Shown piece by piece: positions 39,251-46,605 of a stretch of 48,589 nt of DNA. Position numbers and translations under genes: made by a program. Numbering within the stretch: the stretch's first letter is position 1; every line of letters begins with the position of its first letter. Origin of the DNA: an uncultured Clostridia bacterium (GTDB taxonomy: Bacteria; Bacillota; Clostridia; UBA1212; SIG427); contig CAMFNB010000007.1 in assembly GCA_945965275.1 (NCBI GenBank), positions 1-48,589 on the forward strand. The letters run 5' to 3'. The notes under the pieces are model-generated. The model saw nothing but the letters and a program-made list of their open reading frames with translations, was not told where the DNA came from and did not search any database.

Positions 39251-39825
39251 TATTTTACATGGAATATTTTCGTTATTTCGTTTTTGAAATTTGATTTCAT
39301 TATTATCAGACATTCAATCAGCACTGCTATGGAAAGGCTGAACGCAACAATTACCTGCCAGATAACATCCTGCTTTTGATTTATGAAAATAATTGACGAG
39401 CCCACGAGAGTGATAACGGCAAATATTATGAGCGGAAGCATGTTATGACGCTGTCTCTCAAAATCGGTATAGAGCAGAACGCAGACTCCGATAAGGACAC
39501 CGAAGCATACAATTGAAACAACGCCCACTGCCCAGCCGGAAACAAGAAGCCTGTCTATCAGGATAATCATAATGCAGGAATACACAGCAATTTTTACAGA
39601 CTGTCTTATTCTGTTGAACTCAATGACATCCGGTGAGATGGTCAGCGAGTAAACCATGAATAAGCCCCAGCATGCAATCGCACTCCATGCCTTTCCGCCT
39701 ACGCAGATGTTTACGATAATCGAGGCAATGCCAAGAACTGCAAAAGCAAGGAGACACACATACTGTGCCTTGCGTCTTGTCCTTATTTTCTTTTCGGGAA
39801 CGGGATATGTATAATCAATCTTCAA
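39250..39825 (-). CDS. DUF6320-like membrane protein
   Basis: A 191-residue protein with about six transmembrane segments after a basic N-terminus (MKIDYTYPVPEKKIRTRRKAQ). From memory it resembles DUF6320 proteins, which are often encoded beside alcohol-acetyltransferase-like proteins as here. It overlaps the acyltransferase gene by 11 bp and is the last gene of a five-gene operon. Function unknown. Confidence 0.6.
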   Translation of the reverse strand: MKIDYTYPVPEKKIRTRRKAQYVCLLAFAVLGIASIIVNICVGGKAWSAIACWGLFMVYSLTISPDVIEFNRIRQSVKIAVYSCIMIILIDRLLVSGWAVGVVSIVCFGVLIGVCVLLYTDFERQRHNMLPLIIFAVITLVGSSIIFINQKQDVIWQVIVAFSLSIAVLIECLIIMKSNFKNEITKIFHVK

Positions 39826-41314
39826 TCAAAACACTTCCTTCCACAACAGGATCAAGGCCGTCTGCACAAAGCAGCTCATAAAAACAGTCTTCAAAAGAAG
39901 AATCCGCAGTATTCTTTGAAACGGAGAATGTGCATGTGTTTCCGAATGTAACGGAAGAACATGCCAGGCGATTTGTGCTGACTGTTCCCAATACAAAATC
40001 CAGACTTTCTATTTTATCTTCAATTTCCGCAGGAAATTTCACAACTCCCAGATTTGAAAGGGTGGTGGAGAAAATCTTTTCTCCCAAAACACCGTAAACT
40101 CTTTTGGCAACGGGTGCCATCAGAAAAAGCGGAATAAACCTGAGCAGCTTAATCATGTTGTTTGTTGAAGCCACCATCTTGGTCATGCTTTCCTTTGATG
40201 CTTTCTTTTCCAGCTGAGCCGTAATGTCGGGAATAAGATCATCCGCATTTTTTATGTCAGTCAGCGGTTCTCTGATTCCGCAGTACATTGAAAAATTCCG
40301 AAGTGTTTCAGACGGATAGTATTTTCTCATATTCACGGGAACCATAACACTGAATTCTCCGCTTATTTCGTCACAGGCATTTCTTCCCGCCGCAAACATT
40401 CTTGAGAGGAGATATGCGGTTACAGTGGCATTTCTGCTTTTCGCAACTTTTTTGAGTTTTGCGGCATCCAGTTTAAAATGCAGAACCTGACACGGTCTTA
40501 CCTTGGAAAGTTTTCCCCCGAACTGCATTGCGGTTTTATCCATAAAGCCCGCGGGTTTGCCTTCTGTCGGCACATTGGGAAACTCGTTTGTAAGCTCACC
40601 TGCGGAGACGATTCCGTTTACCGGAAGAACTCCGTTTGTGCTTTCGCAGGGAGTGCCGAGAATCCTGAAGTATTCCGCAACGATTGTCTTCAGAAAGGCC
40701 ATACCTCCGGTTCCGTCGGACAGTATGTGGAACAGTTCCACGCTGATTCTGTTTTTGTAACACATGAGGCGGAATGTCTGAGATCCGCTGGCACCGACTT
40801 TTATGTGATGACACGGAACGCCCGTATCCGGAAGCGCAACATATCTTCTCTTTGTGGTTTCAAGATAGTGCCAGAAGATACCCTTTTTTACAGATGTGGC
40901 AAAGGTCGGGAAACGCTTTATTGTAAAGGTAAGGGCCATCTGCAGAATTTCCGGAATAACATCTTCTTTAAGATAAACAGAAAGCCTGAAAAGGGCCATA
41001 TTATCGCTGCTCATGGAAACAGGGTAAATCTTTGCCGCATTGTCAATGGGGAACCATGTGGTGGCAGGACGGCTGTAAAAACCGCCTAAGTTTACCACAT
41101 CAAGACGATGCATTGCCTCTTCAAAGGAAACCCCGGATGCATTGAGCATGATAAGAGCCTTGTCGAAGTCTTCCAGCATTGCCTTTTTTTCGCGTTTGGG
41201 CAGATTTATCTGTTTTGAAATCCGGTCGAAGAAGGGAATTGTTTTTTCATTTATCTGCTCTGAAACAAAAGGTACTTTCTTGTTCTTATTTTGCTTTTTG
41301 TTTTTCTTACTCAT
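39815..41314 (-). CDS. Condensation-domain-like acyltransferase (alcohol acetyltransferase type)
   Basis: A 499-residue cytosolic protein of the CoA-dependent acyltransferase / condensation fold. The active-site pattern HHxxxDG appears as ELFHILSDGTGGMAFLK, with one of the two His replaced by Phe, as is common outside NRPS domains. NMRKYYPSETLRNFSMYCGIRE and STTLSNLGVVKFP correspond to structural motifs of the second half. A Lys-rich N-terminus precedes the domain. It probably transfers an acyl group to an alcohol or amine, with an alpha/beta hydrolase and two membrane proteins in the same operon. Confidence 0.78.
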   Translation of the reverse strand: MSKKNKKQNKNKKVPFVSEQINEKTIPFFDRISKQINLPKREKKAMLEDFDKALIMLNASGVSFEEAMHRLDVVNLGGFYSRPATTWFPIDNAAKIYPVSMSSDNMALFRLSVYLKEDVIPEILQMALTFTIKRFPTFATSVKKGIFWHYLETTKRRYVALPDTGVPCHHIKVGASGSQTFRLMCYKNRISVELFHILSDGTGGMAFLKTIVAEYFRILGTPCESTNGVLPVNGIVSAGELTNEFPNVPTEGKPAGFMDKTAMQFGGKLSKVRPCQVLHFKLDAAKLKKVAKSRNATVTAYLLSRMFAAGRNACDEISGEFSVMVPVNMRKYYPSETLRNFSMYCGIREPLTDIKNADDLIPDITAQLEKKASKESMTKMVASTNNMIKLLRFIPLFLMAPVAKRVYGVLGEKIFSTTLSNLGVVKFPAEIEDKIESLDFVLGTVSTNRLACSSVTFGNTCTFSVSKNTADSSFEDCFYELLCADGLDPVVEGSVLIED

Positions 41315-43528: not shown

Positions 43529-44608
43529 TCAGTTCAGCTCTCTGCGCTTCTTTCTGCGAACTCTGTTTATGTGTCGTTCAAAATCCCCGCTTCGCAGCAG
43601 CTCAGCCAGAACATACTGGCTCAGCACCGGAACCGTGCAGGAATAGAAGCCGAGCTTTTCGTTGAATGTTTTTACCATGTCAGAGGGAAGTATCATATAT
43701 CCGACTCTGACTGACGGGGCAACCGTCATTGAAAATGTGTTCAGGTATATTACGTTTTTACCGCCTGACATTGCAAAGAGAGTATCCTCTGCTTTACTTG
43801 AAACAGTAAGCTCCGAGTCGTAGTTATCCTCGATTATCAGCGCGTTGTGTTTCTTTGCCCAGGAAAGATATTCGTGTTTCTTTCTCGCTCCCACACTTGT
43901 TCCGGTGGGGAAGCTGTTGAAAGGTGTGGTGTGAAGAACCGTTGCTTTTGTTTTCCTCAGGGCATCGGAATCTATGCCGTCCGGTAAAAGTTTAAGCATG
44001 TCGCATTTGATGCAGTGTGCTTCATAAACTTTTCGTATTTTATCATAAGAAGGGTATTCAAGTGCAAAAATTTTTTTTGAATATAATTGTGCAATCAGAG
44101 AATAAAGATATTCAGCTCCTGCACCGATGATCACCTGGGAAGGTTTAACACGTATGCCTCTGCTGCGTGCAAGATAAGAACATATTTCTTCCCTCAGTTC
44201 CGTACATCCGTGGTTCGGGGCCTTTATGAGAATCTTTTCTCCGTAATCAAGCAATACACGTCTTATTGTTTTCGAAAGAATATCATATGAGAAATCTCCC
44301 ACGGTGTGGGGCTGAAGTTTTTTCGGAGAAGCTTTTTTTGCTGTTGCGGGAACTCCCTGAAAATCACCTTCTCTGAATATTACGAACAGTCCGCTTCGCT
44401 GCTTTGCTTCGACATAACCTTCGTCACACAGGAGCGCTATTGCATGCTGTACGGTAATGACACTTACACCCGTTTCGGCTGTAATTGTTCTCTTCGAAGG
44501 CAGCTTGCTTCCGCAGGGATACACTCCGCTGATTATGTCACGGCGGAGACACTCATAAAGCTGAAGGTATGCGGGTGTGTTTGATTTTGTGTCAATTTTG
44601 TAATTCAT
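43529..44608 (-). CDS. MocR-type regulator lacking the PLP lysine and C-terminal subdomain
   Basis: Residues 1-75 are a GntR winged helix (YLQLYECLRRDIISGVYPCGSKLPSKRTITAETGVS). The rest is a fold-type-I aminotransferase-like domain with GAGAEYLYSL, EYPSYDKIRK and IIEDNYDSEL. The position that carries the PLP Schiff-base lysine in MocR proteins (TFSK) reads NTFSMTVAPSVRVGY, codon ATG. The protein stops after HINRVRRKKRRELN, about 100 residues earlier than the usual ~460. It is divergent from an ECF S component and leads the DUF1576 operon; no ribosome binding site is seen. It may sense something other than covalent PLP, or be decaying. Confidence 0.85.
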   Translation of the reverse strand: MNYKIDTKSNTPAYLQLYECLRRDIISGVYPCGSKLPSKRTITAETGVSVITVQHAIALLCDEGYVEAKQRSGLFVIFREGDFQGVPATAKKASPKKLQPHTVGDFSYDILSKTIRRVLLDYGEKILIKAPNHGCTELREEICSYLARSRGIRVKPSQVIIGAGAEYLYSLIAQLYSKKIFALEYPSYDKIRKVYEAHCIKCDMLKLLPDGIDSDALRKTKATVLHTTPFNSFPTGTSVGARKKHEYLSWAKKHNALIIEDNYDSELTVSSKAEDTLFAMSGGKNVIYLNTFSMTVAPSVRVGYMILPSDMVKTFNEKLGFYSCTVPVLSQYVLAELLRSGDFERHINRVRRKKRRELN

Positions 44609-44609
44609 C

Positions 44610-44648
44610 TGGTTATATTAAAAACTCTGTTTTTGGTTATTTTAATAT
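44610..44648. promoter_or_regulatory. Direct-repeat operator between the MocR and ECF genes
   Basis: TGGTTATaTTAAAA (from 44610) and TGGTTATtTTAATA (from 44634) are near-identical direct repeats 24 bp apart. Direct repeats are the usual binding sites of MocR/PdxR regulators. They overlap the minus-strand -10 (TAATAT, 44615-44620), consistent with autoregulation. Confidence 0.55.
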
Positions 44649-44705
44649 GTTCAGCTGAATTGTATTCTTTTGCACATAAAAAGTAAAGTATGGAGGTACC
44701 CGAAA

Positions 44706-45272
44706 ATGGCAGGTACATATGGCGGAAGAAAAACCGTAATAAGATTAACATTAACAGCAATGTTTATGGCATTAAATATAGTACTCAGTTCATTCTCCGT
44801 TCCGGTTCCGGGCGGTCACTTATATCTCAACGATGTTGCAATTTGTTTTGCGGCAATCCTGCTTAACCCGTTTGAAGCATTTGTTGTGGGAGGTATCGGA
44901 GCATTCCTCGGAGACTTGTTCTTCTATCCTGCACCCATGTTCGTATCTCTTGTTGTTCACGGACTTCAGGCAGTTGTGATTTCGCTGTTTGCACATTATA
45001 TTATGAAAAAGCATCCTGTTGTTTCCTCCGGAATCGGTGTTACAATCGGTGCAATTATCATGGTTGTTGGTTATACCTTCGGACGTGTGTACATTTACGG
45101 AGTCGGAGATGATGTATCCGCATTGTGGGTGGGTTCAATTGCAAAGCTTCCGTTCCAGTGTCTTCAGGCCGGTGTCGGTGCCGTACTCGGTATGATTCTT
45201 GCTTATCCGAGCCAGCTCAGAAAGGTATTTCAGAAGATCGTCGGCGAGAAACCGTATGCGATTTCAAAATAA
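44706..45272 (+). CDS. ECF transporter S component (vitamin or precursor uptake)
   Basis: A 188-residue membrane protein with about six helices, from the ATG at 44706 (GGAGG upstream, MAGTYGGRK); the track's start is 12 codons too early. RLTLTAMFMALNIVLSSFSVPVPGG and GGIGAFLGDLFFYPAPMFVSLVVHGLQA are typical of ECF S components, including the Ala-rich helix 1 that contacts the shared T subunit. No EcfA or EcfT genes are near, so it must use a shared module. The divergent MocR-type gene suggests vitamin B6-related cargo, a guess from context. Confidence 0.85.
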   Translation: MAGTYGGRKTVIRLTLTAMFMALNIVLSSFSVPVPGGHLYLNDVAICFAAILLNPFEAFVVGGIGAFLGDLFFYPAPMFVSLVVHGLQAVVISLFAHYIMKKHPVVSSGIGVTIGAIIMVVGYTFGRVYIYGVGDDVSALWVGSIAKLPFQCLQAGVGAVLGMILAYPSQLRKVFQKIVGEKPYAISK

Positions 45273-45293: not shown

Positions 45294-45713
45294 TTATTTG
45301 TCTTCTTTTTTGTTGGTGTCAATACTTTTACCGAATACGAAGAATCTCTGATAAAGGAATTCCGTAACAAAGTTGATTACCATGTTGATTGCCGTTACAA
45401 GATATTCGTTCCAACCTATACCGGTCAGAAAGTGTTCAAGCAGTGTTGATGCCGGTGTGAAGACCGCGTAATATGCGAGAACCTTCAGCATTGCAACCGG
45501 AACATTCGCAGCCGACTTGAAGGTGAACTTTCTGTTGAAAGTGAAATTCCAAACAACTGACAATACAAGAGCAATCAGATATGAACACCAGTACGGAAGA
45601 TGAAGAACCTCGTTCAGAAGGGCGAAGGAACCCATCTGAATAACGCCGGCGCTTATTGAGAAAAACAGAAATTTTATTCCGCGGATCAGTTCTTTGCGTT
45701 TTGTGTTTTCCAT
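45294..45713 (-). CDS. GtrA-like membrane protein
   Basis: 139 residues from the ATG at 45713 (AAAGGA 9 nt upstream; the track start overlaps the patatin gene). Four hydrophobic segments: FLFFSISAGVIQMGSFALLNE, YLIALVLSVVWNFTFNRKFTF, VLAYYAVFTPASTLLEHFL and YLVTAINMVINFVTEFLYQRFFVF. The NFTFNRKFTF and FLYQRFFVF patterns are GtrA/DPMS-like hallmarks. Such proteins help flip or position lipid-linked sugars for cell-wall or teichoic-acid glycosylation. It lies 28 nt after the patatin gene. Confidence 0.85.
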   Translation of the reverse strand: MENTKRKELIRGIKFLFFSISAGVIQMGSFALLNEVLHLPYWCSYLIALVLSVVWNFTFNRKFTFKSAANVPVAMLKVLAYYAVFTPASTLLEHFLTGIGWNEYLVTAINMVINFVTEFLYQRFFVFGKSIDTNKKEDK

Positions 45714-45741
45714 AGATTTCATTCCTTTGCAAAAGCTCTCC

Positions 45742-46605
45742 TTAGTTTTCAAGGTAATTGCAAAGCTCTTTATATCGGGCTGTTGCATCTTTAACTCCGA
45801 GGTCGTATACGTACTGAAGGTTCTCTGGGTTTCTTTCTGTCTTACTGATTTTTATTGGCTCGGACGGTCTGAAAACAAAAGCTTTTCCTTCCGCTTCAAG
45901 TGTTTTGAGTTTTTCTGTCTGTCTGTTGTATTTCTCATGTCTGTGAATAATAGCATTTGCGACTGCAGGAAGCTTTCTCTTATAGAAAAGATTGGCAATG
46001 AATTTGTTTGCCGGCTTTTTCAAATAGTTAATATCCTGCGTAAGAATGACGATTGTTTTGTCTGTTCCTTTATTCATCATCCATTCGTACGGAATACTGT
46101 CTCCCAAAGCACCGTCAAGATAACTGTTGTCTCCGATTTTAACGGGCTTTGAAACAAGAGGCATTGAGCCAGATGCACGAAGGGTGTCCATCTGGTCAAA
46201 CACGCTGGTTATCTTCACATATTCGGGAAGTCCGGTAGCCACGTTTGTTATAACAGCATAAAACTCAACGGGAGATTTTTTGTATGTTTTATCGTCAAAG
46301 GGATCAAGCTCGCGGGGAACTCTTCTGTATGCATAATCCGTATTTATTATATTTCCTTCGCGAAGAAGCGGGCGAGGCCCCATGTAATTCTTATCTGAAT
46401 TGTATTTTTTATTATATCTGATTACGCGGCCTGCCTGACCTGAAACATAGTTCACACCGAAGAGTGCACCTGCGGAAACCCCTACCGCAATATCCGCTTT
46501 AACTCCGAGCTTTAAAAATGTATCCAGTATTCCTGCGGTGTACATGCCGCGCATTGCACCGCCTTCTAAGACAAGTCCGACTTTTTTAACGTTTGTGTTT
46601 TCCAT
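45742..46605 (-). CDS. Patatin-like phospholipase
   Basis: A 287-residue cytosolic lipase of the bacterial RssA/YjjU type. Oxyanion Gly-rich turn LVLEGGAMRGMY, nucleophile GVSAGALFG (GxSxG) and Asp of the dyad in SYLDGALGDSIP are intact. It would hydrolyse acyl esters of membrane lipids. It is in an operon with a CrtO-like acyltransferase, DUF3784 and GtrA-like proteins, so lipid or glycolipid turnover is suggested. Confidence 0.9.
   Translation of the reverse strand: MENTNVKKVGLVLEGGAMRGMYTAGILDTFLKLGVKADIAVGVSAGALFGVNYVSGQAGRVIRYNKKYNSDKNYMGPRPLLREGNIINTDYAYRRVPRELDPFDDKTYKKSPVEFYAVITNVATGLPEYVKITSVFDQMDTLRASGSMPLVSKPVKIGDNSYLDGALGDSIPYEWMMNKGTDKTIVILTQDINYLKKPANKFIANLFYKRKLPAVANAIIHRHEKYNRQTEKLKTLEAEGKAFVFRPSEPIKISKTERNPENLQYVYDLGVKDATARYKELCNYLEN

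Follow-up and report, generated by a model that had tools for sequence, protein, structure and literature searches.

According to PMC6677901, every cluster of MocR regulators conserves Asp279 and Lys312 (in the numbering of GabR). The window, by which we mean the whole stretch of 48,589 nucleotides of DNA from an uncultured Clostridia bacterium that was analysed, encodes a PdxR-type MocR regulator with a methionine at the Schiff-base Lys position and without the C-terminal small subdomain. Is such a protein still a functional regulator, and how could it sense vitamin B6? Our reading, to which we assign a probability of about 0.55, is that it belongs to a Clostridia PdxR clade with truncated C-termini and works as a transcription factor that controls B6 salvage, and that the Lys-less members of this clade sense their ligand non-covalently. 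That the regulator works and is conserved is strongly supported; the identity of the ligand, the non-covalent mode and the sign of regulation are what we infer.

The gene (43529..44608, minus strand) runs from ATG to stop without internal stop codons and encodes 359 aa. The GntR winged helix-turn-helix DNA-binding domain of MocR proteins is present at residues 14-76 (44381..44569, minus strand; Pfam PF00392, 60.1 bits). Residues from about 108 to 359 (43532..44287, minus strand) form the large domain of a fold type I aminotransferase together with the connecting helix. The PF00155 match at residues 108-346 (60.7 bits) covers positions 13-270 of the 361 positions of the Aminotran_1_2 profile and is hence incomplete. 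The protein passes the curated NCBIfam model of PdxR, NF052282, with 347.8 bits (cut-off 320), and the match stops at position 360 of the profile (1-360 of 448), where the small C-terminal subdomain is absent. By these profiles the protein is short by about 90-105 residues at its C-terminus. In the alignment, Met294 of the motif NTFSM (codon ATG, 43727..43729, minus strand, within NTFSMTVAPSVRVGY) falls in the column of the PLP Schiff-base Lys (Lys312 of GabR). The first-pass annotation, which had read TFSM in place of TFSK, a protein about 100 residues short and an otherwise intact fold with its GntR domain, was borne out on each of these points.

The AlphaFold2 model of the regulator had a mean pLDDT of 89.9, and only the linker at residues 84-94 fell below 50. 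Foldseek superposed the model on PdxR of B. clausii (7pq9) with 2.0 Å over 256 columns, and GabR was also matched. In the model, the chain stops inside the helix by which the large aminotransferase subdomain is normally connected to the small one. The basic C-terminal end of this connecting helix (RHINRVRRKKRRELN; 43532..43576, minus strand), in which R345 and R351 are invariant in the truncated clade, is predicted to occupy the place of the basic patch Lys362-Lys368 in the connecting helix of GabR (PMC6677901). A minimal functional MocR core composed of the PLP site and the connecting helix has been proposed (PMC6677901), and the truncated clade comes close to a natural version of it.

The shortness of the protein is not peculiar to this gene. 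Homologues of at least about 42% identity from many Clostridia share its end point (..ERHINRVRRKKRK). Among 391 genomes of Clostridia species, the open frames are 349-410 aa long for matches above about 42% identity and 436-509 aa below, and the short form is found in about 40 of these genomes, spanning 18 families. We built a maximum-likelihood tree from the shared part of 115 proteins, mostly from MAGs (91 truncated sequences and 24 full-length relatives), with the Lys column left out. In this tree, obtained by a quick search and with SH-aLRT values as the only branch support, a single branch separates all 91 short sequences from the rest (SH-aLRT 100), and one change accounts for the truncation. 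A single loss of the small subdomain is therefore the likeliest history, after which the short form would have spread and diversified. The first-pass annotation was thus right that the protein is short, but this length is typical of an entire clade and is not specific to this strain. We also considered a split gene, with the small subdomain encoded elsewhere. When the 97 C-terminal residues of a full-length relative were searched once against the source genome, no detached subdomain came up (without a positive control, in an assembly that is 83% complete), and this candidate was set aside.

The Lys column has changed repeatedly. Lys is present in 60 of the 91 truncated sequences, and the other 31 carry R, V, M, Q, T, L or H. 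The tree requires at least 18 changes of Lys within the truncated clade, corresponding to about 18 separate losses, and most of the Lys-less branches are single tips. This pattern shows, as far as evolutionary comparison goes, that Lys is dispensable in the truncated frame. Some full-length PdxR/MocR-like relatives in Clostridia (L022, L023, L024 and L026) are also without the Schiff-base Lys, having R, Q, T and S, so the loss of Lys reaches beyond the truncated clade.

The methionine of the window regulator is private, since the seven nearest relatives (L031, L035, L036, L080-L082 and L084) have Lys. Met arose separately in L058 and in L077/L094. We rejected the idea that Met is a conserved new function, given that no near relative shares it and that R, V, Q, T, L or H stands in its place in other lineages. 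Of the two features whose conservation the first-pass annotation had taken as a sign of neofunctionalisation, the length is conserved and the Met is not; the recurrent event is the loss of Lys to many residues, so there is no neofunctionalisation specific to Met. It had also taken close relatives with both Lys and full length as evidence against its proposal; the nearest relatives do have Lys, yet they are equally short.

It is worth considering whether the gene is decaying, or whether the assembly is wrong at the Met codon. Met294 hangs on a single base of a draft MAG assembly (86 contigs, 83% complete), and a base error is possible. The private Met could be such an error, which counts against our main reading, and the Lys of the nearest relatives points the same way. 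If the error is real, the finding at the level of the clade is unchanged. On the other side, the truncation is ancient and shared, the terminal branch of the window gene (0.38) is close to the median (0.34), there is no internal stop, only 15 bp separate the stop codon from the next gene, the operator described below is intact with a second site at pdxK, and Met has arisen independently elsewhere. Relatives are also under purifying selection: in close pairs, dN/dS estimated by the crude NG86 method was 0.06-0.16 for Lys-less pairs and 0.04-0.10 for Lys pairs, although the window gene itself is too distant from its relatives for an estimate of dS. The Lys-less pairs are thus under purifying selection by this measure. 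We consider decay or error very unlikely, and the first-pass suggestion of a decaying gene was rejected on these grounds, as was a frameshift.

If the protein is maintained, what does its pocket hold? Tyr188, Arg301 and Asp261 of the window regulator align with GabR Tyr205 (stacking), Arg319 (phosphate) and Asp279 (ring nitrogen). The roles of GabR Tyr205, Phe250, Asp279, Tyr281 and Lys312 are taken from PMC6677901. All 31 Lys-less members keep Tyr188, Asp261, Thr/Ser291, Arg301 and Gly164, and residue 291 is always Thr or Ser in the truncated clade. We presume that Arg301 and Thr/Ser291 bind the phosphate, by likeness to Arg266 and Ser255 of aspartate aminotransferase. Fitch counting gave 19 changes for the Lys column, none for Gly164, Tyr188 and Arg301, and one for Asp261, in a Lys-bearing sequence. 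Over a branch length of at least 4.5 substitutions per site strictly after the loss of Lys, the contacts G164, Y188, R301 and D261 remained intact. The conservation of all other contacts in the Lys-less lineages is the main reason why we prefer non-covalent binding, and it lends support to the earlier suggestion of a sensor with PLP or another vitamer as a possible non-covalent ligand. The conserved residues could instead be kept for folding and not for a ligand, which counts against our main reading.

The main rival explanation is that the Lys-less members are blind to PLP and act as DNA-binding autoregulators of B6 genes, either constitutive or tuned by a signal other than B6. Two laboratory-made MocRs resemble the window regulator in their missing Lys. 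EnuR K302H represses constitutively and is devoid of PLP, and MpaR K314A has no activity, so that removal of Lys abolished PLP retention and/or function (PMC8739950, PMC10790758), which counts against our main reading. One truncated Lys-less member, L099, carries exactly the His of EnuR K302H, and the residues that replace Lys are chemically diverse. The two mutants, however, are full-length proteins with disabled sensing, whereas the loss of Lys in the truncated clade is natural, recurrent and under purifying selection. A blind sensor should also shed some of the remaining contacts, and they are invariant through 18 losses; linkage to B6 genes is, moreover, retained in 24 of the 31 Lys-less loci. 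We regard PLP-blindness as possible but doubtful.

PdxR-like linkage to B6 genes is seen at the level of the clade: pdxK, pdxS/pdxT or an ECF S gene lies within 2.5 kb in 76 of the 91 truncated loci, and NCBIfam confirmed pyridoxamine kinase, PdxT and PdxS among representative neighbours. The 76 comprise 52 of the 60 loci with Lys and the 24 Lys-less loci. This difference is not significant (p 0.37), and a link between the loss of Lys and the loss of B6 linkage was rejected. Adjacent pdxST was found in 14 of the 24 full-length loci (L017-L028, L111-L122) versus 9 of the 91 truncated ones (Fisher p 2e-6, with kinship ignored). The short form thus goes with B6 salvage genes. Several Arg-bearing truncated members (L033, L039, L045, L034 and L043) lie downstream of ABC transporter genes (an ATPase of 193-236 aa with partners) and have no divergent B6 gene.

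In the window, the divergent gene (44709..45272, plus strand) encodes a predicted ECF S component for B6 vitamer uptake like HmpT/PdxU2. It matches PF07155 (95.5 bits), the Pfam family of PdxU and PdxU2/HmpT (PMC9997740), and its sole PDB match is HmpT (4hzu_S, E 4.7e-9), reported to bind pyridoxamine (PMC4860826). In the alignment with 4hzu_S, His84, Gln87 and Tyr120 of HmpT are kept and Glu41 is replaced by Asp. The protein would presumably carry pyridoxamine or another B6 vitamer. The source genome also contains pdxK, unlinked to the regulator, and EcfA ATPases; pdxS was not found in this 83% complete genome. This gene content is consistent with a salvage lifestyle. Two other loci of the window deserve mention. 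A 499-aa protein (39815-41314, minus strand), which has no Pfam or NCBIfam match and by eye resembles an alcohol acetyltransferase or condensation-type enzyme, is encoded beside an alpha/beta hydrolase and a DUF1576 membrane protein. A patatin-like phospholipase with DUF6363 (45742-46605, minus strand) overlaps the ORF of a GtrA-type membrane protein (45294-45788, minus strand) by about 47 bp; genes for a CrtO-type acyltransferase-family protein and a DUF3784 protein lie upstream of it.

The presence of this S component bears on another interpretation, in which the truncated pocket takes another phosphorylated ligand, such as PMP/PNP or a PLP-amine adduct, because an internal aldimine does not form. 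An internal aldimine is impossible in the Lys-less pockets, the phosphate-site residues are invariant, and the S component is of the kind reported to carry pyridoxamine. However, the 60 truncated members with Lys have the same operator and targets as the Lys-less ones, which argues for a common ligand. We consider a different ligand improbable.

Between the regulator and the ECF S gene lie three predicted operator boxes. Box A (CTGGTTATAT; 44609..44618, plus strand) abuts the start codon of the regulator, box B (TTGGTTATTT; 44633..44642, plus strand) is a direct repeat of box A at a pitch of 24 bp, and box C (44645..44654, minus strand) is inverted, reading ATATGTTCAG on the plus strand and CTGAACATAT on the minus strand. 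Two direct boxes and one inverted box constitute the commonest MocR operator layout (PMC5320631). A putative promoter of the regulator, TTTACT-17-TACAAT (approximately 44659..44687, minus strand; matched to the consensus by eye), adjoins box C. The direct repeats on which the first-pass annotation had based its suggestion of active regulation were thus found again, together with the inverted box.

The upstream regions of the clade have the consensus CTGRTNATAT-n-AAATAAYCA ... TATATAACCAG, followed by ATG. Of 90 upstream regions, 54 contain boxes 1 and 2 together and 44 contain box 3, where mononucleotide shuffles predict 0.8 and 0.15, respectively. Operators are absent or partial in some members, several Arg lineages included, which counts against our main reading; members inside operons are often without them. 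In many members (e.g. L052, L060 and L090, and the window at 44609-44624), an SD-like GGAG precedes the ATG by about 16 nt. Box 3 (TATAACCAG) fills the gap between them, abutting the ATG, so the long spacing is explained by the operator box. The unusually long spacing may keep translation low.

A scan of the genome for the A-B repeat with up to 3 mismatches gave 12 sites, versus 6 for a reversed control pattern; the only exact one is in the window. A second A-B-like site, at C13:18766-18797, is located directly upstream of pdxK, and its box B is 65 nt from the ATG, compared with 68 nt at the ECF S gene. Given the 11 other sites in 1.5 Mb, we estimate a chance of about 0.001 that one falls within the 200 bp before pdxK.

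These observations can be arranged into a mechanism in line with non-covalent sensing. The truncated chain would retain the winged helix, the linker, the large domain that holds PLP and the basic helix end. The apo-regulator would bind the direct repeats A and B and the inverted box C. Once bound, it would limit its own transcription, as box C adjoins the putative -10 element and box A abuts the start codon. Under B6 scarcity, it would turn on the ECF S uptake gene and, in trans, pdxK. PdxR of S. pyogenes without PLP represses itself and activates pdxKU (PMC11619246). Binding of the ligand would release or rearrange the regulator on the DNA and reverse the regulation, as in known PdxRs. The Lys-less members would hold PLP or PMP/PNP non-covalently, with Arg301 and Thr/Ser291 at the phosphate, Asp261 at the ring nitrogen and Tyr188 stacking. 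Covalent attachment may be needless in the truncated regulator, because it has no lobe for an amino-acid effector and requires no external aldimine. By an extension of this mechanism, for which we see even odds, the loss of the small subdomain created a minimal B6 sensor without covalent chemistry, after which Lys was lost by drift on about 18 occasions from an otherwise unchanged cofactor site, giving a natural family of non-covalent sensors of PLP or another phosphorylated vitamer.

Among known systems, PdxR of B. clausii is the best PDB sequence match (7pq9, E 4.3e-58; DNA complexes 7zla, 7zn5, 7zpa and 7zth). It shares the GntR and aminotransferase fold, the B6 targets and the operator of two direct boxes and one inverted box; it has 478 aa with the small subdomain and Lys, whereas the window regulator has 359 aa and Met. 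About a third of the truncated clade lacks this Lys. In the PdxR regulons of Firmicutes (Suvorova and Rodionov 2016, PMC5320631), pdxST, pdxK and pdxU are regulated through the same box arrangement; unlike them, the truncated members favour salvage genes. Word searches of the main text of that paper gave no mention of truncated members or the lysine. GabR of B. subtilis is similar in architecture, in the equivalents of Asp279, Tyr205 and Arg319 and in the basic patch of the connecting helix (PMC6677901). GabR, however, holds PLP on Lys312 and binds GABA also via Arg430 of the small subdomain that the window regulator lacks. In the open-access literature we found no relevant paper on truncation and non-covalent binding, and the novelty of the truncated Lys-less clade is provisional.

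The truncated clade contrasts with the picture of MocR proteins in which PLP dependence goes through one invariant lysine. It has lost the substrate lobe and, repeatedly, the lysine, and it keeps the operator, the B6 targets and the other PLP contacts. It allows the role of the aldimine in a transcription factor to be tested directly, and the truncated regulator offers a compact scaffold for B6 biosensing. The finding also improves the annotation of B6 salvage, namely pdxK and PdxU2-like S components, in Clostridia of the gut and rumen.
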